Positions 1-36,424 of a stretch of DNA of 38,464 nucleotides are shown in pieces. The translations under genes were made by a program, and so were the position numbers. The notes under the pieces were generated by a model. That model saw only the letters and a list, made by a program, of their open reading frames with translations. It searched no databases and was not told where the DNA came from. The DNA is from a virus. Location of the stretch: the IMG/VR virus record IMGVR_UViG_3300037502_003860, positions 1-38,464 of that record. One strand, written 5' to 3'. The stretch's first letter is position 1. Each line of letters opens with the position of its first letter.

Positions 1-2560
1 TGGGGTTACAACATCTTTGGTCAGCTGGGTGACAACAGTACCATTAATCGCAGCAGTCCGGTGCTGGTGTTTAGCCAACCACTGACTGATCTGGCGGTGT
101 GGCAATATGGGTGGCTTGGTGTATGGAGCGCTGCGAATCAAGTCTACCTAACAGGTTACAATCCCTATGGCAACATCGGTGATGGTACCACCAACAATCG
201 CAGCGCGCCCTTTGGCATAGGCGGCCCGCAGGCTCTGCGCTTGGTGGCCCAAGGCCTAAGTGGATTTCAACCTGCGTTGGCCAGCGAGACTGGTCTATGG
301 TTCATGGGCCTCAGCACCTGGACTCGGGGCACTGGGTATCCCACGCTTCGGAGCAGTCCCACGTTCTTGGCCTGGTCCAGTTTCAGCTCACCGGTGCAGA
401 TCGGCACCCTCAGCTACACATCAGTCGGCATGGGCCGGGATTCGGGCATAGCCTTGCGCAACACCGGGGCCATATTCACCTGGGGCTCCAATCAATATGG
501 ACAGATCGGCAACGGCAGCAGCCTGCTGCAGCCTGCTGTCAGTCCGGTGCAGGTGGGCACGTCCAGCTGGACCCAAGTCAGCGCTGGTAGATACAATGTC
601 ACAGCGCTGCGCCAAGACGGCACGGCTTGGGTCTGGGGACTTTCCATTGGTGGCGAAGGCTACGAAGCAGGTACCCAATATCGCAGCAGTCCCGTGGCCG
701 TGGTCAGCAGCCAGATCGCCAACAGCTGGACCGCGGTACGTTCACTGCGCGGTGACAACAACGTGGGCGGCGTGGGCATCAACATCAATACCACGCCGCA
801 GCAGCTGGCTTGGTTCTGGGGCACCGGTGGTTGGGCCATGGGACAAGGCTACGATTCATTCACGGTCAACACTCCTGTGGTGCTGTACAACAATGCCTTC
901 AGCAGTCCCACCCAAGTGGGCGAAGGTCGGGCATGGTCGCAGACAGCGCAGGGCGATCAGTATGGCCTGGCGCTGTTTGGCAGCAGTCTCTATGGCTGGG
1001 GACAAAACAACAGCGGGCAGCTGGGCACCGGTGATCGCCAGAGCCGCAGCAGCCCCACGCAGATCGGCGCCAGTGCCTGGAGCAGTGTTTCGGCCAAAGG
1101 CGTTTTCGCTCATGCCATACGCCAGAACGGTACCTTGTTTGGTTGGGGTCTCAACAACAACGGCAGTGTCGGTGATGGCACCAGCATAGATCGCAGCAGT
1201 CCGGTGCAGATCGGCGCCAGCAGCTGGAGTGCTGTGTCCTCGGGACAGAGCCATGCCATGGCCATTGGAAGCCAAGGCACCTTGTGGGCCTGGGGATTCA
1301 ACAGCACTGGAGAAGTAGGTGATGGCACGCGTATAACTCGCAGCAGTCCAGTGCAGCTGGGCACCAGCAGCTGGCAGGCTGTGGCAGCTGGTCTCCAGTT
1401 CTCCTTGGCCATACGCCAGGACAGCACCCTGTGGGCCTGGGGCTTGAACACCAGTGGTCAGCTGGGCACACCATTAACAGCTATTTTCGTTCAGAGTCCT
1501 GTGCAGATCGGTGCCAGCAGCTGGACAGCCGTAGCCGCGGGCCGCAGCCATGCGCTGGCCATACGCTCGGATGGAAAATTGTTTGGGTGGGGACTCAACG
1601 ATCGTGGAGCTCTGGCTCAGCCTCTGGTTAATATAGCCTTCAGCCGCTACTACAAAGGTGTCAACGCGGCGTATGGTATAGATACCCTGGGACGACTCTG
1701 GACCATGGGCAACAATGCCACTGGTCTGTTGGGCCTAAATGTCGATCCAAATGCTCTGAACGTCGCGATCTGGCCAGCCCAGGTCGGCACCAGCAGCTGG
1801 ACTGCTGTCAATGCAGGCAGCCAAAATTCCGCATTTGCCTTGCGCCAAGGTGGTTCACTGTTTGGCTGGGGCAGTGGACAGTTTGGCAGTATAGGCGATG
1901 GCACCAACATCAATCGCAGCAGTCCGGTGCAGATCGGCTCCAGTGCTTGGACCGCCATAGCCACAGACAACAACGGAGTGTACAAGGGAGCGGCCATACG
2001 TCAAGATGGTAAATTGTTTACCTGGGGATACAATCCGTTTGGTGATCTAGGTGACGGTACCCTTGTCAATCGCAGCAGTCCGGTGCAGATCGGCACCAGT
2101 AACTGGGCAGCAGTGGCCTGGGCTGGATATACCGGAATGGCCATACGTCAAGATGGTAGGCTGTTTGCCTGGGGCTATAATCCCCGCGGCAACATCGGTG
2201 ATGGTACCACCGAGGCCCGCAGCAGTCCTGTTCAGATCGGCACCAGCTCATGGGTTGCTGTGACTGGTAGCACAGCCTATTCCACATGGGCCATACGTCA
2301 GGGCGGCACCTTGTTTGCCTGGGGCGAAAACGCCAGTGGAGAACTGGGTCTGGGTGACACCATCACTCGCAGCAGTCCCACGCAGATGGGCACCAGTTCC
2401 TGGACCGCGATATCGGTGTCAGGCAATTCCAGTGTGTGGGCTCTGCGCCAGGACGGCACGCTGTGGGCCTGGGGCTTGAACACTGGTGGACAATTGGGTG
2501 ACACTACCGGGACCAATCGCAGCAGCCCGGTACAGATTGGCATAGGACTGAGTTTCACGG
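1..2560 (+). repeat. Tandem RCC1 repeats, about 150 bp period
   Basis: The repeats are still similar at DNA level. The core CGCAGCAGTCC followed by a GTGCAGATCGG-like segment recurs near positions 49, 682, 1042, 1192, 1339, 1913, 2071, 2218, 2368 and 2518. Several neighbouring copies are 147-150 bases apart. Such near-identical direct repeats could recombine to change blade number or be misassembled from short reads. Confidence 0.8.
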
Positions 2561-2949
2561 CCATAGGACAGTACGGTGCCGTGACCACTGCCCAGGTGCC
2601 CTATGGTTGGTATAATTTGCAGGGCATGGGCAACGGCCAGCAGAGCGGCACCGTGTTTTCACCCATACCGGCCATGACTGCGTTAAACAATTCCGTGCTG
2701 GTGTCACCCACGCAGATCGGCAACAACAGCTGGACCGCTGTAGCCGCGGGATCCATGACCAGCGCAGCCCTAGACGTCAACCAGTATCTCTGGACCTGGG
2801 GTGCTGGCAATCTCCTGGTGTTGGGCGGTCCTGGCGGTGGTACCACCGTGGACAGATCCAGTCCAGTGCAAGTGGGAGGCAACATAGCCTGGAGCACTAT
2901 ATCCTTGGGCTACAGCGGTGCGTCCGCAGTGAGCGAAAATCTCCCCTAG
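1..2949 (+). CDS. RCC1-repeat beta-propeller protein, 5' end missing
   Basis: The reading frame is open from base 1, so the gene begins upstream; 982 residues are visible and it stops at TAG 2947-2949. It is built almost entirely of RCC1-type repeats of about 50 residues. The recurring pattern is W-x-W-G-x-N-x-x-G-Q-L-G-D-G-T, then R-S-S-P-V-Q-I-G, then S-S-W-T-A-V, then A-I-R-Q-D-G. I count roughly 18-19 units, some degenerate near residues 240-300 and 830-880. RCC1 units form seven-bladed beta-propellers, so this much sequence could make more than two. No signal peptide or membrane segment is visible in the part present. In a tailed phage such a protein is most likely an exposed adhesin or tail-associated binding protein; that role is inferred. 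It sits directly before the glycan operon. The family call is secure, the function is not. Confidence 0.85.
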   Translation, partial: WGYNIFGQLGDNSTINRSSPVLVFSQPLTDLAVWQYGWLGVWSAANQVYLTGYNPYGNIGDGTTNNRSAPFGIGGPQALRLVAQGLSGFQPALASETGLWFMGLSTWTRGTGYPTLRSSPTFLAWSSFSSPVQIGTLSYTSVGMGRDSGIALRNTGAIFTWGSNQYGQIGNGSSLLQPAVSPVQVGTSSWTQVSAGRYNVTALRQDGTAWVWGLSIGGEGYEAGTQYRSSPVAVVSSQIANSWTAVRSLRGDNNVGGVGININTTPQQLAWFWGTGGWAMGQGYDSFTVNTPVVLYNNAFSSPTQVGEGRAWSQTAQGDQYGLALFGSSLYGWGQNNSGQLGTGDRQSRSSPTQIGASAWSSVSAKGVFAHAIRQNGTLFGWGLNNNGSVGDGTSIDRSSPVQIGASSWSAVSSGQSHAMAIGSQGTLWAWGFNSTGEVGDGTRITRSSPVQLGTSSWQAVAAGLQFSLAIRQDSTLWAWGLNTSGQLGTPLTAIFVQSPVQIGASSWTAVAAGRSHALAIRSDGKLFGWGLNDRGALAQPLVNIAFSRYYKGVNAAYGIDTLGRLWTMGNNATGLLGLNVDPNALNVAIWPAQVGTSSWTAVNAGSQNSAFALRQGGSLFGWGSGQFGSIGDGTNINRSSPVQIGSSAWTAIATDNNGVYKGAAIRQDGKLFTWGYNPFGDLGDGTLVNRSSPVQIGTSNWAAVAWAGYTGMAIRQDGRLFAWGYNPRGNIGDGTTEARSSPVQIGTSSWVAVTGSTAYSTWAIRQGGTLFAWGENASGELGLGDTITRSSPTQMGTSSWTAISVSGNSSVWALRQDGTLWAWGLNTGGQLGDTTGTNRSSPVQIGIGLSFTAIGQYGAVTTAQVPYGWYNLQGMGNGQQSGTVFSPIPAMTALNNSVLVSPTQIGNNSWTAVAAGSMTSAALDVNQYLWTWGAGNLLVLGGPGGGTTVDRSSPVQVGGNIAWSTISLGYSGASAVSENLP

Positions 2950-4223: not shown

Positions 4224-4988
4224 GTGACTACAAAAACTCTCAACCTCATCACGGGTCTGCCGAGGTCTGGCAGTAGCGTGATCAGCAGTGTCTTGGCACA
4301 AAACCCCAAGCTACACAGCAACACCAACAGCGTACTGGCACAGGTGCTGGGTCAGCTCAATCTAAAGTGGCCCAGCAATCCGGATTTGTCTGATGACAAA
4401 GTCCTGCAGCAAAAACGTGATACCCTGCGCGGTACCATCATGGGATATTATGCTTCAACCTCATCGGACATCATACTTGATAGGAATCTCGGCTGGGTCC
4501 CCCTCATCGCTCTCATGGAAGATCTATTGCAGACCGAGATCAAGATTTTGGTGTGCGTGCGCAATCCCGCCGAAATCCTATCTTCGTATGAACGCACCCG
4601 GATCGCTAACCCGGCTGTTGACACTGCACCAGGCATGAGCAAGAAAGATCGCAGCAGCATCGCCAGTCGCGCGTTTTACTATTCAGGCCCCGATGGCCAA
4701 CTGGGCAAAATCCATCGAAACATACAGGATGCAGTGATCATGGGTTACCTAGATCGCATGCTGTTCGTGGATTATGGTATGTATTGCAGCAATCCGCGCA
4801 GCCAGACTCGCCGCATCTATGACTTTTTTGGCATGGAAGAGTTCTCACATGATTTCCAGAACATCGCGCCAGGCAACCCCGGAGTGAGACCGCAGTTGGA
4901 AAAAATCACAGTGAACTGTGTGCAGTATCTCGGACTTGATCTCTTTGACCAATACAACAGCCAGATCTTCTGGAATGCCTGGGTCTGA
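4224..4988 (+). CDS. Sulfotransferase-like protein
   Basis: This 254-residue protein starts with GTG at 4224, with AAAGG upstream. The N-terminus has LITGLPRSGSS (8-18), the P-loop-like 5'-phosphosulfate binding motif of PAPS-dependent sulfotransferases. A second segment, VCVRNPAEILSSYER (110-124), matches the 3'-phosphate-binding Arg/Ser region of the family. Known members move a sulfuryl group from PAPS to a sugar or peptide. Between glycosyltransferases and methyltransferases, the likely acceptor is a glycan, which is inference. Related P-loop proteins without sulfotransferase activity exist, so the reaction is likely but unproven. Its 3' end overlaps the next gene by 14 bases. Confidence 0.7.
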   Translation: MTTKTLNLITGLPRSGSSVISSVLAQNPKLHSNTNSVLAQVLGQLNLKWPSNPDLSDDKVLQQKRDTLRGTIMGYYASTSSDIILDRNLGWVPLIALMEDLLQTEIKILVCVRNPAEILSSYERTRIANPAVDTAPGMSKKDRSSIASRAFYYSGPDGQLGKIHRNIQDAVIMGYLDRMLFVDYGMYCSNPRSQTRRIYDFFGMEEFSHDFQNIAPGNPGVRPQLEKITVNCVQYLGLDLFDQYNSQIFWNAWV

Positions 4989-10343: not shown

Positions 10344-11035
10344 TGCAGAGCCTGTTGAACCGGCGCGACATGAGTGTGCAGTCGGCCTATGTGATCACGC
10401 TGGAAAACAACGACATCAGCGCTGCCCTGTCCGGTCGATGCCAGGCCAGCTGTGTAGCCATACAACAGGCCGTGACACCGTGGCCCGGGTTTGATGCCAC
10501 CAGCGGCGTGATACAATGTCCACCGCAGTTACAGGATCAGATGTGGTGGCAGTGGATCAAGGTCTACGATCATTTCCAGAGCCCCACCGAAGTGGCCTGC
10601 AGCCTCAGCCACATCAGTCTCTGGGCGCATTGCATGACCATAGACCAACCCATCATCGTGCTGGAACATGATGCTGTGATGACCAAAAAATTACAGCATC
10701 ATAGATTCTACAACACTGTGCAGTATCTGGGTTGTGCCCAACAACGAGAGTTTGACATCGCTCGCGGTGATGCAGTGCCCTGGAGCAGCATCAATCAAAA
10801 CTGGATCTTCATCAATCGGGCGCATGCCTACAGCATCGATCCTGCTGCAGCTCGCCGTTTGTTTGGCATGGTGCTGGAACGCGGTATCTTTGAAAGCCTG
10901 GATGTCATGATCATGGCCGATGCAGTGGCCATAGTCCAAGATGGGGTCTATGCCTATGACGATCCTGTGGGTGTGACCACCATCACTGATCGCAAGCAAA
11001 CTGGACAGCACGGACCCGGAGAGATCCGGATCTAG
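10343..11035 (+). CDS. GT25-family (LPS) glycosyltransferase
   Basis: I choose ATG 10343, which overlaps the previous stop as TGATG, over an upstream TTG. The 230-residue protein starts its fold with SAYVITLENN (14-23). It has the GT25 segment EVACSLSHISLW (83-94) and IIVLEHDAV (104-112), with the EHD acidic motif. GT25 enzymes add galactose or glucose in LPS outer core and capsule synthesis. This is the last gene of the plus-strand glycan operon. Its TAG stop (11033-11035) shares bases with the stop of the opposing SDR gene. Confidence 0.75.
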   Translation: MQSLLNRRDMSVQSAYVITLENNDISAALSGRCQASCVAIQQAVTPWPGFDATSGVIQCPPQLQDQMWWQWIKVYDHFQSPTEVACSLSHISLWAHCMTIDQPIIVLEHDAVMTKKLQHHRFYNTVQYLGCAQQREFDIARGDAVPWSSINQNWIFINRAHAYSIDPAAARRLFGMVLERGIFESLDVMIMADAVAIVQDGVYAYDDPVGVTTITDRKQTGQHGPGEIRI

Positions 11036-11040
11036 ATCTC
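11021..11040. other. Palindrome holding both convergent stop codons
   Basis: GATCTAGATC (11029-11038) is a perfect palindrome. The plus-strand GT25 gene ends in TAG at 11033-11035 and the minus-strand SDR gene ends at 11034-11032, so CTAG (11032-11035) encodes both stops. GAGATC (11021-11026) can also pair with GATCTC (11035-11040). There is no U-tract, so it is not a canonical intrinsic terminator. Confidence 0.6.
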
Positions 11041-11832
11041 GGTGAGCATGCTGTCTATGGCCTGGCGCCAGGTCAGCTGCGGTCGCCAGCCCAGCCTACT
11101 CAGCCGGTCACAGTCCAGGATACAGTCCACTACATCAAAACGAGTTTCCAGCACTGTTTCGCTGCGACTCTGGGTGCGTTCACGCACATAGTCGATGGCC
11201 TGATGGAATCTGATGCTGTGGCCTGACCCTATGTTGTAGATCTTGTTGATCTCGCCCCGTGTGATCACGGTGTCGATGGCGTCACAGGCATCTGACACAT
11301 GCAGGTAATCTCTGAGGAAGTCCCCGCGATTCACCAAGGTTATGGGCTCGTGGTGCCGCAATCTCTGGCTCATGGTGTGCAGGATGTTTTTCTTGGTGCT
11401 GGCTCCGGGATCTTTGGCACCTATGACATTGCACAACCTCAGGATGCGCCAAGGTATGTCATGCACCCTGCAATATTCCATCAATAGCTGCTCGGCAGTG
11501 CGTTTGGTTATGCTGTAAAATCCCTGGGGGTCACAGGGCGCACGTTCGTCCACGGCCTGTCCCACGGCCCCATACACGAACCATGAGCTCACGAAATTGA
11601 ATTCTATGTTGGCCACGGATCGGGCCTGTTCCAAGACCCTGATGAGATGCATGATGTTTACGTCCACATCGATATAGGGATTGGCGGGCAAGTGATGGTT
11701 GTGCGTGGTGCTGATCATGTACAGAACCTTGGGGCCCTGGGGCCGTAGATCATCTCTGGGCTGCAACACAGCACCATGCTGCTGGCGATACCAACTGCCT
11801 AGATAACCGGTGCCACCAAACAAGGTCACCAT
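11032..11832 (-). CDS. SDR NAD(P)-dependent sugar epimerase/reductase
   Basis: Starting at ATG 11832 gives 266 residues that open directly with the Rossmann motif GGTGYLG (6-12). The extended SDR catalytic set is visible: VSSWFVYG (81-88), with S82/S83, then YSITK (106-110), with Y106 and K110. RGDFLRDYLHVSDACDA follows near 180, as in nucleotide-sugar epimerases and 4-ketoreductases. It is a little short for the family (usually 290-340). It overlaps the RfbH-type dehydratase by seven bases, so the best guess is a 4-keto-sugar reductase or epimerase acting on the dehydratase product (compare abequose/paratose synthases). The exact substrate is unproven. Confidence 0.75.
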   Translation of the reverse strand: MVTLFGGTGYLGSWYRQQHGAVLQPRDDLRPQGPKVLYMISTTHNHHLPANPYIDVDVNIMHLIRVLEQARSVANIEFNFVSSWFVYGAVGQAVDERAPCDPQGFYSITKRTAEQLLMEYCRVHDIPWRILRLCNVIGAKDPGASTKKNILHTMSQRLRHHEPITLVNRGDFLRDYLHVSDACDAIDTVITRGEINKIYNIGSGHSIRFHQAIDYVRERTQSRSETVLETRFDVVDCILDCDRLSRLGWRPQLTWRQAIDSMLTEI

Positions 11833-13109
11833 TTCAGCGTGACCTCCTGGATGTAATCCAGCACTGCGGGCGTCCAGCTGGGCGAACAACCCAGGAAAAA
11901 CACACGATCTAGACTGGCATTGGCGTTGGGATATCTGCGGAAATCATCCAGGTGTCGATACGCAGGGTGCAACAAGATGTTGCCGCCAAAGTAATTGCGC
12001 GTCTGCACACGATGGTGCTCAAAATGCGACACCAAGAGATGTTTCTGATCGCGGTCATCGCACAGCAGTGGCGTGCCGAACCAGCTGGGGCTGGCCTGTG
12101 GCAAGGTCTGGACCTGAGGCAGGCCCACGTGCTGGGTCACTGCACGTTCCACCTGTGTTTTGTGCAGTACCCTGCGATCATGTATGGCCCGGAACTTGGT
12201 GAGCTGCACCAAGCCCACGGCGCCCTGTAGATCCAGGGGCTTGAGGTTGTACCCAATGTTGCTGTACACATACTTGTGATCTATCACATCGTCCCAGTCT
12301 GGCAGCCACTCGCTGAAGCGTCGACCGCAGGTGCCACAGGCCAAGGTGTTGGCCCGGCCCACGCAGTAGCAGTCTCGACCCCACCAAGAGATGCTGCGCA
12401 CGGTGTTGATAAAGTCTGCATCGTCACTAGAAACCATGCCTCCCTCGCCGGTGCAGATATGATGTGCGGGATAGAAACTGCAGCTCCAGGCATAATACAG
12501 CTTGGCTATGTGCTGGCCGCGCCACTCAGTGCCGAGACTGTCGCAGTTATCGCCGATCAAGGTGATGCCGTGCTGATCTCGCAGCGCTGTGAGACGATCC
12601 ATGTCGGGAGGATTGCCCAGCACAGGGCTCACGAATATGCCACGGGTGCGAGGGCCAATGGCGGACTCAACTTGATCTAGATCAAAATTCAGGGTATCCA
12701 GCTCGATGTCCACGAACACCGGGCGCAGTCCGTTCTGTATGATGGGCGCTATGGTGGTGGGGAATCCCACGGGGCTCACGATGATCTCGTCGCCGTCCTG
12801 CCAGCCCAGATGTTTTTTCAAGGCAGCCACCATCACGAGATTGGCGCTGCTGCCACTGTTGACCATGTGGCTGTGTGCTGCACCAAACTGCGCGGCAAAT
12901 GCTGTTTGGAATTCTGTGACACGGTCGCCGCTGACGATCCAATTGCCTTGCAAGATGCTGGTGAGCATGGCTTGGATTTCCTGGTGATCCCAATAAGGAC
13001 CGCTGTACAGCACCTGGCTCTGGCCGGGTTGAAAATCTTGGTAATTGGCTAGATATCCGGGCTGGAAAGCTCGTGCTAATTCAGAGAGATCAGGTTTATT
13101 TTGTTCCAT
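11826..13109 (-). CDS. RfbH/E1-type PMP-dependent sugar 3-dehydratase
   Basis: This 427-residue DegT/DnrJ/EryC1-fold protein has the hallmarks of CDP-4-keto-6-deoxyglucose 3-dehydratase, not of an aminotransferase. In SFYPAHHICTGEGG (211-224) a histidine (H216) replaces the lysine that forms the PLP Schiff base. DNCDSLGT (187-194) gives cysteine C189. C247 and C249 in RDCYC, plus C261 in TCGRRF, give the spacing C-x57-C-x-C expected for the [2Fe-2S] ligands of E1. Compared with E1 as I recall it, about four residues are inserted before the last cysteine, and an extra C258 is present. The enzyme removes the 3-hydroxyl on the way to 3,6-dideoxyhexoses and needs a reductase (E3), not seen here. 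It overlaps both neighbours. Confidence 0.85.
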   Translation of the reverse strand: MEQNKPDLSELARAFQPGYLANYQDFQPGQSQVLYSGPYWDHQEIQAMLTSILQGNWIVSGDRVTEFQTAFAAQFGAAHSHMVNSGSSANLVMVAALKKHLGWQDGDEIIVSPVGFPTTIAPIIQNGLRPVFVDIELDTLNFDLDQVESAIGPRTRGIFVSPVLGNPPDMDRLTALRDQHGITLIGDNCDSLGTEWRGQHIAKLYYAWSCSFYPAHHICTGEGGMVSSDDADFINTVRSISWWGRDCYCVGRANTLACGTCGRRFSEWLPDWDDVIDHKYVYSNIGYNLKPLDLQGAVGLVQLTKFRAIHDRRVLHKTQVERAVTQHVGLPQVQTLPQASPSWFGTPLLCDDRDQKHLLVSHFEHHRVQTRNYFGGNILLHPAYRHLDDFRRYPNANASLDRVFFLGCSPSWTPAVLDYIQEVTLKW

Positions 13110-13827
13110 GTGTGTAGTATCGTATGGGCACCACGTCTATGGCGCCGAGGTAGTGTTGGTGATTGGCATAGATGATGTTCAAGATCCGCTCGGCCAAGAA
13201 TGCCAGCATGCGGGCCTGTGGGCGGCCATCTGGAGCTATCTGCATGTAGGGCAGGCTGTACCGGACTCCATCACGCAGCTCAAAAATGATGTCAAACAAC
13301 ACACTGCACACACGGTCAAACACTGACCTGTGTGCAAAAAACATGTTGCAAGGCGACAGCGTGTGTATGTGGTCTAGACCTTCTATCATGTCCGTGGTCA
13401 TGGGTATCCGGCCTTGCCGCGCTGCTTCCCACAGCACATGCAGACCGATGTCGCCGTGGCATGTGCGGTATTGATGAGCGATGCTGTAGGGAAATTGTAG
13501 AAACACACTGACCCAGAGTCGATCCTGTCGCTGCGGTTGCTGTTGCACATCACCATCGTCGTAGCTCCTGCGATATTGATTGGTGCCCACCCATTCATCC
13601 TGGGTGTTTTTCCAGACCCAGTACAATCCAGTGAGGTCTCCCAACCAGGGATTCAGCGCACTGATATTGTCGCCCTGATCATCAAAACAATACCCTGCTG
13701 TTGCGAGATCCTGGCGCTGCACAGGATCCAAGCTCTGTGCGTGGCACATGAGGTCTCGCTGTTGGAACTGCCGTATCCGTGCAGTGTGTCCAGGAAAACA
13801 ATTGCAGTATAACACTAGATCTCGCAT
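13096..13827 (-). CDS. DUF4422 glycosyltransferase-like protein
   Basis: ATG 13827 gives 243 residues matching DUF4422 in order: LNPWLGDLTGLYWVWKN (58-74), GTNQYRRSY (81-89), LSPCNMFFAHRSVFD (157-171), then FDIIFEL (178-184) and AFLAERILNI (209-218). DUF4422 proteins are found in capsule and LPS clusters and in glycosyltransferase chains. They probably transfer a sugar, although biochemical data are thin as far as I know. The 3' end overlaps the dehydratase by 14 bases, and 35 bases separate it from the NUDIX gene. Confidence 0.8.
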   Translation of the reverse strand: MRDLVLYCNCFPGHTARIRQFQQRDLMCHAQSLDPVQRQDLATAGYCFDDQGDNISALNPWLGDLTGLYWVWKNTQDEWVGTNQYRRSYDDGDVQQQPQRQDRLWVSVFLQFPYSIAHQYRTCHGDIGLHVLWEAARQGRIPMTTDMIEGLDHIHTLSPCNMFFAHRSVFDRVCSVLFDIIFELRDGVRYSLPYMQIAPDGRPQARMLAFLAERILNIIYANHQHYLGAIDVVPIRYYTHGTK

Positions 13828-13862
13828 GATGCGAGTATGTATGCGTGTTTTTTGATCCTGCC

Positions 13863-14300
13863 CTATTTCACGCCGATCATGCGTTCCACGGCCAGTATTT
13901 TTTGTTGTATGGTCTCGATGTTCACGGTGTTCCACAGGCCCGGATGCATGGGTCTGGGCCAGCAGCCCCGGTAGATCCAGGCATAGCCCAGATGTTCGTG
14001 ATTGAGGCGGGGATGGAACTCCTGCGGTACCACACAGATCCAGGTGTTGTACTCAAACTCGCCGTCTGCGGAAGTGAAACGCTCCAGGGGCACCAGATGC
14101 TGATATTCCGGGAAAAACCCCAGTTCTTCGCGGCATTCGCGTTCCATGCCGCCCAGCAGGGTTTCCCCGGGTTCGATCTTGCCACCGGGCAAGGCCCAGG
14201 TGTCAGGTTGCCGGCTGTCGTTGCGCATGAGATAGAGATAGCGCTGGGTGTCCTGGCTCAAGAACCACACACCCACGGCTTTTACAGCACTATGCTCCAT
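13863..14300 (-). CDS. NUDIX hydrolase
   Basis: The 145-residue protein contains a complete Nudix box: G-x5-E-x7-R-E-C-R-E-E-L-G-F, starting at GGKIEPGE near residue 38. The WALPGG segment before it is typical. NUDIX enzymes hydrolyse a nucleoside diphosphate linked to another group, such as nucleotide sugars, dinucleotides or oxidised dNTPs. In this place, between tail-completion gp15 and sugar genes, it may handle nucleotide sugars (GDP-mannose-type activity is one option), but the substrate cannot be read. ATG 14300 lies inside the end of gp15, with 19 bases of overlap. Confidence 0.85.
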   Translation of the reverse strand: MEHSAVKAVGVWFLSQDTQRYLYLMRNDSRQPDTWALPGGKIEPGETLLGGMERECREELGFFPEYQHLVPLERFTSADGEFEYNTWICVVPQEFHPRLNHEHLGYAWIYRGCWPRPMHPGLWNTVNIETIQQKILAVERMIGVK

Positions 14301-15679
14301 GTGCCTCCGGCGTAGACGCCTTGATAGCTCTTCTGCCAAAACTCACCGTTCCACTCATATTGTATGCCCGTGGTGATGTTGGTGACATATTGCTGGGCCG
14401 TCTGGTTCTGTGCTGGAAATACCACGCGCCAGCGCTGTGAGGTGTATTCGATGATGTCATTGGCCTGTGCCAGCAGCGGACGACCGTTTTCACCCACCCA
14501 AGCCAAGGCTGGATCTATGTTGTCATCGCCGCCAGTGCCCTGGGTCAAGAGATAGCGCTGACCGTTGGCAGCGGCTGGCAGTCCCGAACCCGGACCGCTG
14601 ATCAAGGGATCTATGATGGCATCTATGGGTGCTAGGGTGTTCTGGGGCGCAGTGTCGGGGTCAACATCAAATATCACCAGCCTATCATCGTTGGGGTTGA
14701 TATTGATGGTGCCGATGATCTCTGTGCCGTCCTGCCGCTCCAGCCGGATCTGGCTGATGCCCGGACGCAGCTTGCCGTAGAGATCGATCACAGCGGGCCA
14801 CAGGAGATTGCTGTCAGGCACCAGCTGGGTGGGATCAAGATCTGCAGCGCTGCCATTGGGCACACGCGCCGCGGCCTGCAGGCATTGTATCTGATTGTCG
14901 ATCACTGCCAGTTTGTAATTGAATGGTGTGATCTTCTGGCGTGTGCCCAGCAAGAGATCGCTGTCATTGATGGCTTCATTGGCGTCACCTTGGCTGTCGA
15001 ACACCGATGCCACGATACGCTCCACCACGCCTAGCTTCTTGAGTTTGGCTGGTGATGAGATCCATATGGGCAGATTGAAACGCATGGTACAGATATCTAT
15101 GGGATTTTCTGTGCCCATGGGAATGGTCCTGCTGCTGAACTGTGTGCTTTCTAGTTCCAGCACTGACAGACTGGTCCAGTCGATGTAGTTGTCGGTGCTT
15201 TGTATCTCTAGGCTGGGATTGAACAAGGTAGCGATCTGCTCGAAGATCTGGAATTTCTGGTTGGTATTTGAGGTCCAGATGTCGAGATTGATGGTCATCT
15301 TGTAGGGCACTGGCATGAGCCGTTCGATAGTAAACGCATTGCCCTGCGTGGTCTCGTAGCTGTCGGTGTCAGCATCATAGGTTCTCTGGCGCACTGCTAT
15401 TTTACTGACAAAATAGGGATCCTGCATCCTGGGTCGGTCATATTCCAAGGCAGCGATGTAGAAGGTCATGAGTGGCGTGCTGGGCAGGCTGTTGCGGCTA
15501 TTTTCCTGTATGATGGTCTGCGCATTGCGGCTGGCATCGCCATAGCGCACTGGCACCCGCAGCAGGGCGAAGTCATCGCTGCCTTCTTCGCGTCCATACT
15601 GCACCTGGAATCCCGAAAAAATCCTGGTAAACTGCAGCAGGAATCGGCGTATCTGTTCATCGTAAAAGAAAGTTTGCAT
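14282..15679 (-). CDS. 15: gp15-like tail sheath stabiliser/completion protein
   Basis: The N-terminal half follows T4 gp15: an FFYDEQIRRFLLQFTRIFSG opening (4-23), then a LLRVPVRYGD strand near 40-50. The segment PVPYKMTINLDIWTSNTNQK near 122-141 corresponds to the region ending in the LSIFTRYEDD part of T4. gp15 forms the hexameric terminator that caps the tail tube and sheath and joins the tail to the neck. At 465 residues it is far longer than T4 gp15 (about 270). The extra C-terminal region, roughly 250-465, includes a GKLRPGISQIRLERQDGTE segment and a C-terminal beta-rich part. It is two bases downstream of the gp14 gene. Confidence 0.75.
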   Translation of the reverse strand: MQTFFYDEQIRRFLLQFTRIFSGFQVQYGREEGSDDFALLRVPVRYGDASRNAQTIIQENSRNSLPSTPLMTFYIAALEYDRPRMQDPYFVSKIAVRQRTYDADTDSYETTQGNAFTIERLMPVPYKMTINLDIWTSNTNQKFQIFEQIATLFNPSLEIQSTDNYIDWTSLSVLELESTQFSSRTIPMGTENPIDICTMRFNLPIWISSPAKLKKLGVVERIVASVFDSQGDANEAINDSDLLLGTRQKITPFNYKLAVIDNQIQCLQAAARVPNGSAADLDPTQLVPDSNLLWPAVIDLYGKLRPGISQIRLERQDGTEIIGTININPNDDRLVIFDVDPDTAPQNTLAPIDAIIDPLISGPGSGLPAAANGQRYLLTQGTGGDDNIDPALAWVGENGRPLLAQANDIIEYTSQRWRVVFPAQNQTAQQYVTNITTGIQYEWNGEFWQKSYQGVYAGGTWSIVL

Positions 15680-34846: not shown

Positions 34847-36424
34847 ATGCAAGGCGTGAAAAGTCACTTAGAAACCCAGCTGGTAAAACCGCCACACCGG
34901 CGGCAGACCTATACTGAAAGCGAACTAGAACAGTTCATGCTGTGTGCGGATCCGGAGACCGGACCCATATACTTCATGGACAACTTCTTCTACATACAGC
35001 ACCCCACACGCGGCAAGATGCTGTATCATCCGTTTGAATTCCAGCGCCGGCTCATCGAAACCTATCACAACTATCGCTACAGCATCAGCCTCATGCCCAG
35101 GCAGACCGGCAAGTCAACTTCGGCCGCAGGGTATCTGCTGTGGTATGCCATGTTCGTGCCAGACTCAACCATACTCATAGCTGCGCACAAATACACCGGT
35201 GCCCAGGAGATCATGCAGCGCATACGCTATGCCTATGAGCTGTGTCCCAATCACATACGCGCCGGCGCCACCAGTTACAACAAAGGTTCGATAGAGTTTG
35301 AAAACGGCAGCCGCATCGTGAGCCAGACCACCACAGAGACCACGGGACGGGGCATGTCAATATCGCTGCTGTACTGTGACGAGTTCGCGTTCGTGAGGCC
35401 TACCATAGCCCGGGAATTCTGGACTAGTATCTCGCCCACGCTGAGCACCGGTGGTAAAGCCATCATCACATCTACACCCAACTCAGACGAGGACATGTTC
35501 GCATTCCTGTGGAAAGGTGCCAACAAGACCCTGGACGAACACGGCAACACCATGGAGCTGGGACGCAATGGATTCCGCGCCTACCGGGCCTACTGGCGCG
35601 AGCACCCCGATCGCGACGATGTCTGGGCCGCAGAGCAGCGCCAGCAGCTGGGCGAAGATCGTTTCCGCAGGGAGATGGACTGCGAATTCATCATCAACGA
35701 CGAGACCTTGATTGCTCCGGCAAAACTCCTGGATCTCGAGCCCCGTGAGCCCTTGAGGAAAACCGCACAGGTGCGCTGGTATGAACCCATCATAGCAGGA
35801 CGAATGTATGTGGTGAGCCTGGATCCCAGCCTTGGCACCGGCGGAGACCCCGCGGCCATCGAAGTGTTTGACGCCAACACCACCACACAGGTAGCAGAGT
35901 GGCGTGACAATCGCGCCACCATACCGGATCAAGTGCGCATCCTGGCCGACATCGTCAAAGAGCTGCATGCCACGGTGCGCGATGACAAGATGATCTACTA
36001 CAGCATCGAAAACAATACCATAGGCGAGGCTGCTCTGATCTCTATCGCAGAATACGGTGAAGAGAACATACCAGGCTATTTCCTGTCAGACAACAGCGTG
36101 GTAGGGCAGCGCAGATTCCGCAAGGGATTCAACACCACGCCCAAGGCCAAGCTCACGGCCTGTGCCAAGTTCAAGATGCTGATTGAAAGCGGACGCATGA
36201 CCGTGAGCAGCCGTGCCCTGATCTCGGAACTCAAGACCTTCGTGGCACACGGCGTGAGCTATGCTGCCAAACCCGGTGAGACCGATGATCTCGTCATGAG
36301 CACACTGCTGGCAGTGCGCATGATGTTGCTGCTGCAGAGCTATCACACCGAAATCGACTCGCAGCTCAAAGATCACGGTGATGTGGTCATAGAACCCATG
36401 CCCTTTATCAGCGTGTTACGGTAA
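34847..36424 (+). CDS. 17: gp17-like terminase large subunit
   Basis: The 525-residue protein has both motor and nuclease domains. ATPase: Walker A PRQTGKST (84-91), Walker B LLYCDEF (174-180), coupling motif TSTPN (208-212). The RNase H-like nuclease carries D326 in VSLDPSLG, E388 in YSIENN and D481 in ETDDLV, matching the three acidic residues of T4 gp17. It packages DNA into proheads and cuts concatemers. It is shorter than T4 gp17 (610) mainly at the N-terminus. A late-type promoter precedes it and the gene ends within the promoter of the next gene. Confidence 0.92.
   Translation: MQGVKSHLETQLVKPPHRRQTYTESELEQFMLCADPETGPIYFMDNFFYIQHPTRGKMLYHPFEFQRRLIETYHNYRYSISLMPRQTGKSTSAAGYLLWYAMFVPDSTILIAAHKYTGAQEIMQRIRYAYELCPNHIRAGATSYNKGSIEFENGSRIVSQTTTETTGRGMSISLLYCDEFAFVRPTIAREFWTSISPTLSTGGKAIITSTPNSDEDMFAFLWKGANKTLDEHGNTMELGRNGFRAYRAYWREHPDRDDVWAAEQRQQLGEDRFRREMDCEFIINDETLIAPAKLLDLEPREPLRKTAQVRWYEPIIAGRMYVVSLDPSLGTGGDPAAIEVFDANTTTQVAEWRDNRATIPDQVRILADIVKELHATVRDDKMIYYSIENNTIGEAALISIAEYGEENIPGYFLSDNSVVGQRRFRKGFNTTPKAKLTACAKFKMLIESGRMTVSSRALISELKTFVAHGVSYAAKPGETDDLVMSTLLAVRMMLLLQSYHTEIDSQLKDHGDVVIEPMPFISVLR

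Follow-up and report, generated by a model that had tools for sequence, protein, structure and literature searches.

The closest described systems are Yersinia E1 (CDP-6-deoxy-L-threo-D-glycero-4-hexulose-3-dehydrase, AscC/DdhC/RfbH; 3bcx, 3bb8), ColD (GDP-4-keto-6-deoxymannose 3-dehydratase; 2gms, 3b8x) and SpnQ (dTDP-4-keto-2,6-dideoxyglucose 3-dehydratase of spinosyn biosynthesis). To our knowledge, a dTDP carrier has not been described for the classical dideoxyhexose pathways. ColD lacks an Fe-S cluster and restores its PMP by means of glutamate; SpnQ, which is of the E1 type, converts a dTDP sugar and draws on general ferredoxin or flavodoxin systems in place of E3 (PMC8987622). Virus-borne rfbH genes have been listed in marine surveys under the CDP-sugar name (PMC10653327, PMC11295528), and phage database records already bear E1-like names. 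Viral rfbH as such is accordingly known, but no description of a clade with a four-residue insert, of its coupled SDR, of a dTDP context or of the cysteine C258 was found in the open-access literature searched. Here we propose, with a probability of about 0.6, that an E1-like protein and its SDR neighbor form the last two-step unit of a phage-borne, E3-free pathway for a nucleotide-linked (most likely dTDP-linked) 3,6-dideoxyhexose.

Active site and predicted fold of the phage enzyme

The window, i.e. the whole analyzed stretch of 38,464 nucleotides (IMG/VR virus record IMGVR_UViG_3300037502_003860), encodes an E1-like protein of 427 aa on the minus strand (11826..13109; ATG at 13109, TGA at 11826-11828). 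An earlier note on this DNA had correctly recognized the open reading frame, but without its strand, and had ascribed it to a phage, in agreement with the terminase, tail sheath, tail tube and neck genes of the record. The terminase large subunit (34847-36424, plus strand) is nearest to those of PA5oct-type jumbo phages of Pseudomonas (52.6% aa), followed by Sinorhizobium Phosso and Agrobacterium Atu_ph07, which makes it probable that the 38 kb window is a fragment of a far larger genome.

The top PDB sequence match of the E1-like protein in phmmer is Yersinia E1 (3bcx/3bb8, E=7.5e-69), ahead of 9wvy, a putative NDP-4-keto-6-deoxyglucose 3-dehydratase, and ColD. Its AF2 model (pLDDT 93.5) is weakest at the loop around residues 241-280, where the confidence is 70-80, and its best structural match is again E1 (VIA-align; Z 49.5 over 402 residues, 32% identity). 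The E-value and the extent of the structural match indicate that this kinship reflects homology rather than chance. His216 (codon 12462..12464, minus strand), located within SFYPAHHI, replaces the Schiff-base lysine of aminotransferases and is aligned with the catalytic histidine of E1, at the position that carries Lys in the H220K mutant. Cys189 (12543..12545), the Cys247-Tyr-Cys249 segment (12363..12371) and Cys261 within C258-G-T-C261 (12327..12338), all on the minus strand, provide the predicted [2Fe-2S] ligands 1 to 4, each of which aligns with one of the four E1 cysteines. Their spacing is x57, x1 and x11; the last gap in E1 is x7, and the E1 sequence is gapped by four residues opposite the insert, in whose region C258 represents an extra cysteine. 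Neither His216 nor any of the four cysteines varies among the 81 viral sequences or in a 51-row alignment in which classical E1 of bacteria and archaea is represented.

The earlier note had deduced the PMP-type active site, the four cysteines in the E1 register and the displaced last cysteine with its additional neighbor, and it had named structure prediction and alignment with E1/RfbH/ColD among the ways to check them. Both analyses agree with it: the active site has a histidine and no lysine, the cysteines lie at the cluster site and E1 is the best fold match. The note's rejection of a plain sugar aminotransferase also stands, as the DegT/DnrJ/EryC1/StrS reading is ruled out by His216 together with the four cluster cysteines. 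A ColD-type enzyme was likewise rejected, because all four cysteines are retained here and the ColD-like rows of the alignment lack the set. Translation, database search, model and tree support the assignment as an E1-type PMP/[2Fe-2S] NDP-4-keto-6-deoxysugar 3-dehydratase in the broad sense, with both the cluster and the C3-deoxygenase activity predicted from the protein sequence.

A sister clade of RfbH and its SDR partner

One scan of IMG/VR yielded at least 590 viral stretches with relatives of the E1-like protein, and the best 80 of these relatives share 56-64% identity with it. Among bacterial and archaeal genomes, a scan retrieved ten cellular relatives at 49-57% identity (Nitrosomonadaceae, an actinobacterium, Bacteriovoracales, Polyangiaceae, two Prochlorococcus, Rhodospirillales, Nitrospirae) before a drop to 40% or less, which corresponds to classical E1. 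All ten possess the four-residue insert without C258, and classical E1 has neither. The maximum-likelihood tree unites the insert clade in one group (SH-aLRT 100), next to which stands classical E1 (92); the viral C258 group is a single branch within the insert clade (SH-aLRT 99). The isolated Synechococcus phages S-H68 and RN05-S and their kin have the insert form without C258 and branch near a Prochlorococcus copy; within Prochlorococcus the gene is rare (2 of 121 genomes). A match in Salmonella phage S.Kent (34%) stems from a record of 2.6 kb.

The curated RfbH equivalog model (NCBIfam NF011936) has a cut-off of 423 bits. The E1-like protein reaches 349.4 bits and falls outside the class, and its close viral and bacterial relatives score 354-372. 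The basal Nitrospirae member (L091) attains 446.8 bits, and six classical E1 controls from the genome scan 598-760 bits. By the tree and by its sub-threshold score in comparison with classical E1, the phage protein is a member of an insert-marked clade that is sister to E1/RfbH, and not of E1/RfbH proper as had been noted earlier, although by its residues it should work like E1.

The additional C258 is the hallmark of a subclade that is mostly viral. The residue might alter the metal site, either as an alternative fifth thiol, by a redox-switch disulfide or through a different cluster type, which would be compatible with the reaction proposed below. Its presence in 80 of 81 viral loci, its absence from the other members of the insert clade and the single viral branch fit this idea, but one viral locus (L016) has Gln at this position, showing that C258 is not essential in all of them, and the model confidence in the C258 loop is only 70-80. 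We consider such a change of the metal site improbable.

The gene directly downstream, which the earlier note had passed over, is the most conserved partner of the E1-like gene. It encodes a short extended-SDR of 266 aa (11032..11832, minus strand; Pfam Epimerase, 98.7 bits), whose start codon ATG at 11832 overlaps the stop codon of the E1-like gene (AAATGGTGA). The junction (CTGAAATGGTGACC) contains AGGAGG ten bases upstream of this ATG. Neighbor clustering of the best 80 of at least 590 viral relatives located an SDR directly after the E1-like gene, on the same strand and usually overlapping, in 78 cases. In L052 the SDR is 703 bases away. In L072 its slot is filled by a fusion of an RmlD-like protein, a member of another ketoreductase family, with GT2, and the same arrangement is found in the 642 kb phage LR756502. 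Such one-chain reductase-transferases directly follow the E1-like gene in L072 (9293-10672) and L084 (9263-10681). The SDR is also present in nine of the ten cellular relatives, usually just upstream of the E1-like gene and overlapping it, i.e. in the order opposite to the viral one, and in phages of the S-H68 type it lies upstream at a distance of about 6 kb from the E1 end. The pair thus persists through changes of gene order.

G9/G12, S82, Y106 and K110 of the SDR are invariant in 31 sequences, and both the glycine-rich NAD(P) motif and the catalytic S-Y-K residues are present, a combination that suits ketoreductases but fits epimerases too. The AF2 model (pLDDT 89.3) has the extended SDR fold, and its top fold matches (Foldseek, VIA) are a mixture of epimerases, dehydratases and reductases, including GDP-4-keto-6-deoxymannose reductases, that does not separate the reactions. 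The protein is not RmlB or another 4,6-dehydratase: it has SSWFVYG instead of the Asp-Glu motif and a shortened NAD half, and it scores 93.6 bits on RmlB versus a curated cut-off of 365. A 4-keto sugar that results from C3 deoxygenation normally needs to be reduced before transfer, and an NAD(P)H-dependent C4-ketoreductase is therefore the simplest role of the SDR and its likely one. This partner also bears on an activity of the E1-like protein as a C4 aminotransferase that makes an amino sugar with no dedicated reductase. In vitro, SpnQ catalyzes this side reaction when glutamate and PLP are supplied and the reductase is missing (PMC8987622), but here neither His216 nor any of the four cysteines varies, and the constant SDR fits a ketoreductase, which would be needless at C4 in an amino sugar pathway. 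Amination as the main activity is very improbable.

On the other side, the E1-like start is overlapped by the gene of a DUF4422 protein (13096..13935, minus strand; likely start ATG near 13827; PF14393, 94.9 bits), and a NUDIX hydrolase gene (13863..14339, minus strand; PHROG MutT/NUDIX, 82.9 bits) lies upstream in the same gene run. The resulting minus-strand operon has the order DUF4422, E1-like, SDR, each gene overlapping the next. DUF4422 immediately precedes the E1-like gene in eight other viral loci and directly follows E1 in the Nitrosomonadaceae contig, which makes it a candidate glycosyltransferase for the sugar. The operon converges on plus-strand glycan genes for a sulfotransferase, an FkbM methyltransferase, a 2OG-Fe(II) oxygenase and GT25. 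The sulfotransferase (4224-4988, plus strand; PF00685, 46 bits) suggests that the phage glycan is sulfated. Just before this gene run, a 962-aa protein (61-2949, plus strand) has a PHROG match to RCC1 repeats (“regulator of chromosome condensation”). Because the cluster sits among tail and structural genes, it is slightly more likely that the finished sugar decorates virion glycans than the host surface.

The sugar carrier

The earlier note had assumed a CDP-linked substrate and had missed the dTDP context that is visible in some relatives, where RmlB, sometimes together with RmlA, lies beside the E1-like gene. Of 50 viral records, 15 encode an RmlB that exceeds the curated cut-off, and in most of these 15 it is located directly upstream of the E1-like gene and overlaps its start. 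Two reservations apply: the 15 loci correspond to only 6-7 lineages among 37-45 at 90-95% identity, and RmlB is widespread in general. The most complete candidate pathway was observed in L061 (3576-7499), with RmlB, an RmlA-like gene, the E1-like gene and the SDR in a row. The RmlA-like protein of this locus reaches 316 bits, below the cut-off of 361, with RmlA as its best model by far. L064 and L066 have an RmlA-like gene, the E1-like gene and the SDR in a row. In cellular members of the clade, RmlA and RmlB, both above cut-off, adjoin the SDR-E1 pair of Bacteriovoracaceae (L087), and RmlB that of Polyangiaceae. Most viral loci, including the window, have no visible 4,6-dehydratase.

These neighbors have to be weighed against the classical pathway, in which a phage RfbH/E1 would convert CDP-4-keto-6-deoxyglucose supplied by host RfbF/RfbG, with the help of a host E3, into an end sugar of the CDP-abequose or CDP-paratose type. 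E1 is indeed the closest characterized relative in both sequence and fold, and the CDP name is already in use for phage genes. With home-made profiles, however, 18 of 33 classical loci proved to have a CDP-glucose dehydratase at a distance of up to about 10 kb from E1, compared with none of the 94 insert-clade loci. The difference also holds for cellular loci alone (0 of 10 insert-clade versus 18 of 33 classical; Fisher p=0.002). As for the glucose-1-phosphate cytidylyltransferase of the CDP route, no NTP_transferase match above the cut-off was obtained in the 35 viral records searched. Curated models applied to whole genomes identified the CDP-glucose 4,6-dehydratase somewhere in seven of eight genomes with classical E1 versus two of ten bacterial genomes of the insert clade, eight of which contain RmlB. 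The position beside E1 is taken by RmlB and RmlA instead, and the score of the E1-like protein below the RfbH cut-off also speaks against the CDP route, which we judge unlikely.

Still less probable is a GDP-linked route, in which GDP-4-keto-6-deoxymannose from Gmd would be turned into a colitose-like sugar by the Fe-S enzyme in place of ColD. A GDP-mannose 4,6-dehydratase is present in two viral records, one with a strong GDP_Man_Dehyd match (L008) and one with Gmd above its cut-off (L035). Gmd is however not a recurrent neighbor, in contrast to RmlB with its frequent overlap of the E1-like start; the next gene in L035 encodes another SDR of GDP-fucose synthase size, so that Gmd may serve fucose there, and the cluster cysteines are not ColD-like. 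As the recurrent 4,6-dehydratase is RmlB, sometimes accompanied by RmlA, a dTDP-linked rather than a CDP-linked 3,6-dideoxyhexose pathway is predicted, with dTDP as the most likely carrier and dTDP-4-keto-6-deoxyglucose as the most likely substrate.

Electron supply, proposed pathway and comparison with known systems

The earlier note had seen no E3 reductase, and the FAD/NAD reductase domain PF00175 of E3-type enzymes was not found in 35 related viral records; these comprise many fragments but also records of 161, 163, 207 and 642 kb. The only Fer2 matches belonged to small ferredoxins encoded by two cyanophages. No E3-sized Fer2 fusion was seen in the two Prochlorococcus genomes that have the E1-like/SDR pair, where every Fer2 frame is at most 136 aa long, although their assemblies are incomplete. 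A regular-expression search for E3-like fusions in the cellular flanks was uninformative, since it retrieved none even beside classical E1. The missing E3-type domain in the viral records points to a host ferredoxin or flavodoxin as the likely donor, a mode of E1-type chemistry for which SpnQ sets a precedent. The note's suggestion of a host donor is thus plausible and can be extended to the clade, but it is unproven for a fragmentary genome that may carry an E3 elsewhere. Electrons most likely come from a ferredoxin or flavodoxin system of the host, or in some cyanophages of the phage, and not from a dedicated E3. Culturable test cases are provided by the isolates S-H68 and RN05-S (L082, L083), which possess an insert-clade E1, have a plant-type ferredoxin in its vicinity and carry about 20 sugar genes; S-H68 also has RmlB above cut-off.

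In the proposed pathway, dTDP-4-keto-6-deoxyglucose would be supplied by host RmlA/RmlB in the case of the window and, for some relatives, by an RmlB (and RmlA) of the phage itself. By analogy with E1, PMP would form a Schiff base with the NDP-4-keto-6-deoxyhexose; His216, which is incapable of forming an internal aldimine, would deprotonate the cofactor, with expulsion of the hydroxyl group at C3. The predicted [2Fe-2S] cluster (C189/C247/C249/C261) would then give single electrons to the intermediate, yielding NDP-4-keto-3,6-dideoxyhexose. In the second step the SDR would use NAD(P)H to reduce the ketone at C4, giving NDP-3,6-dideoxyhexose, and DUF4422 or another nearby glycosyltransferase might finally move the sugar onto a glycan. 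More tentatively, the phage-enriched Fe-S dehydratase clade as a whole may make dTDP-linked 3,6-dideoxyhexoses without E3, with the fifth cysteine of the viral members tuning or protecting the cluster. If the dTDP reading is true, much of the CDP annotation of viral rfbH needs correcting, and the virus would tap the dTDP-rhamnose precursor pool of its host. The pair would represent a compact two-gene, E3-free system for 3,6-dideoxy sugars, pointing to phages that build rare sugars into virion or host-surface glycans.

Among known systems, the SDR resembles the GDP-6-deoxymannose reductase RMD (6x3b, 2pk3) in its extended-SDR fold and in being a short single-domain enzyme, but the two share only about 20% identity. 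The CDP-paratose/abequose synthases RfbS/RfbJ, short single-domain extended-SDR enzymes as well, may be similar to it. ColD shares with the E1-like protein the fold (Z about 46), the active-site histidine and C3 deoxygenation; the retention of all four cluster cysteines sets the phage protein apart. SpnQ, likened here by its description as an E1-type [2Fe-2S] PMP enzyme (PMC8987622), differs by its antibiotic pathway and trideoxy product. E1 itself has in common with the phage protein the fold, the PMP-type histidine, the four cluster cysteines in register, the GRDCxC segment and the expected C3 deoxygenation. The phage protein differs from E1 by an identity of about 32%, the four-residue insert before the last ligand and the extra C258. 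Its locus is distinguished from that of E1 by the lack of a nearby E3 or CDP-glucose dehydratase, by RmlB/RmlA in its relatives and by the constant short SDR partner.
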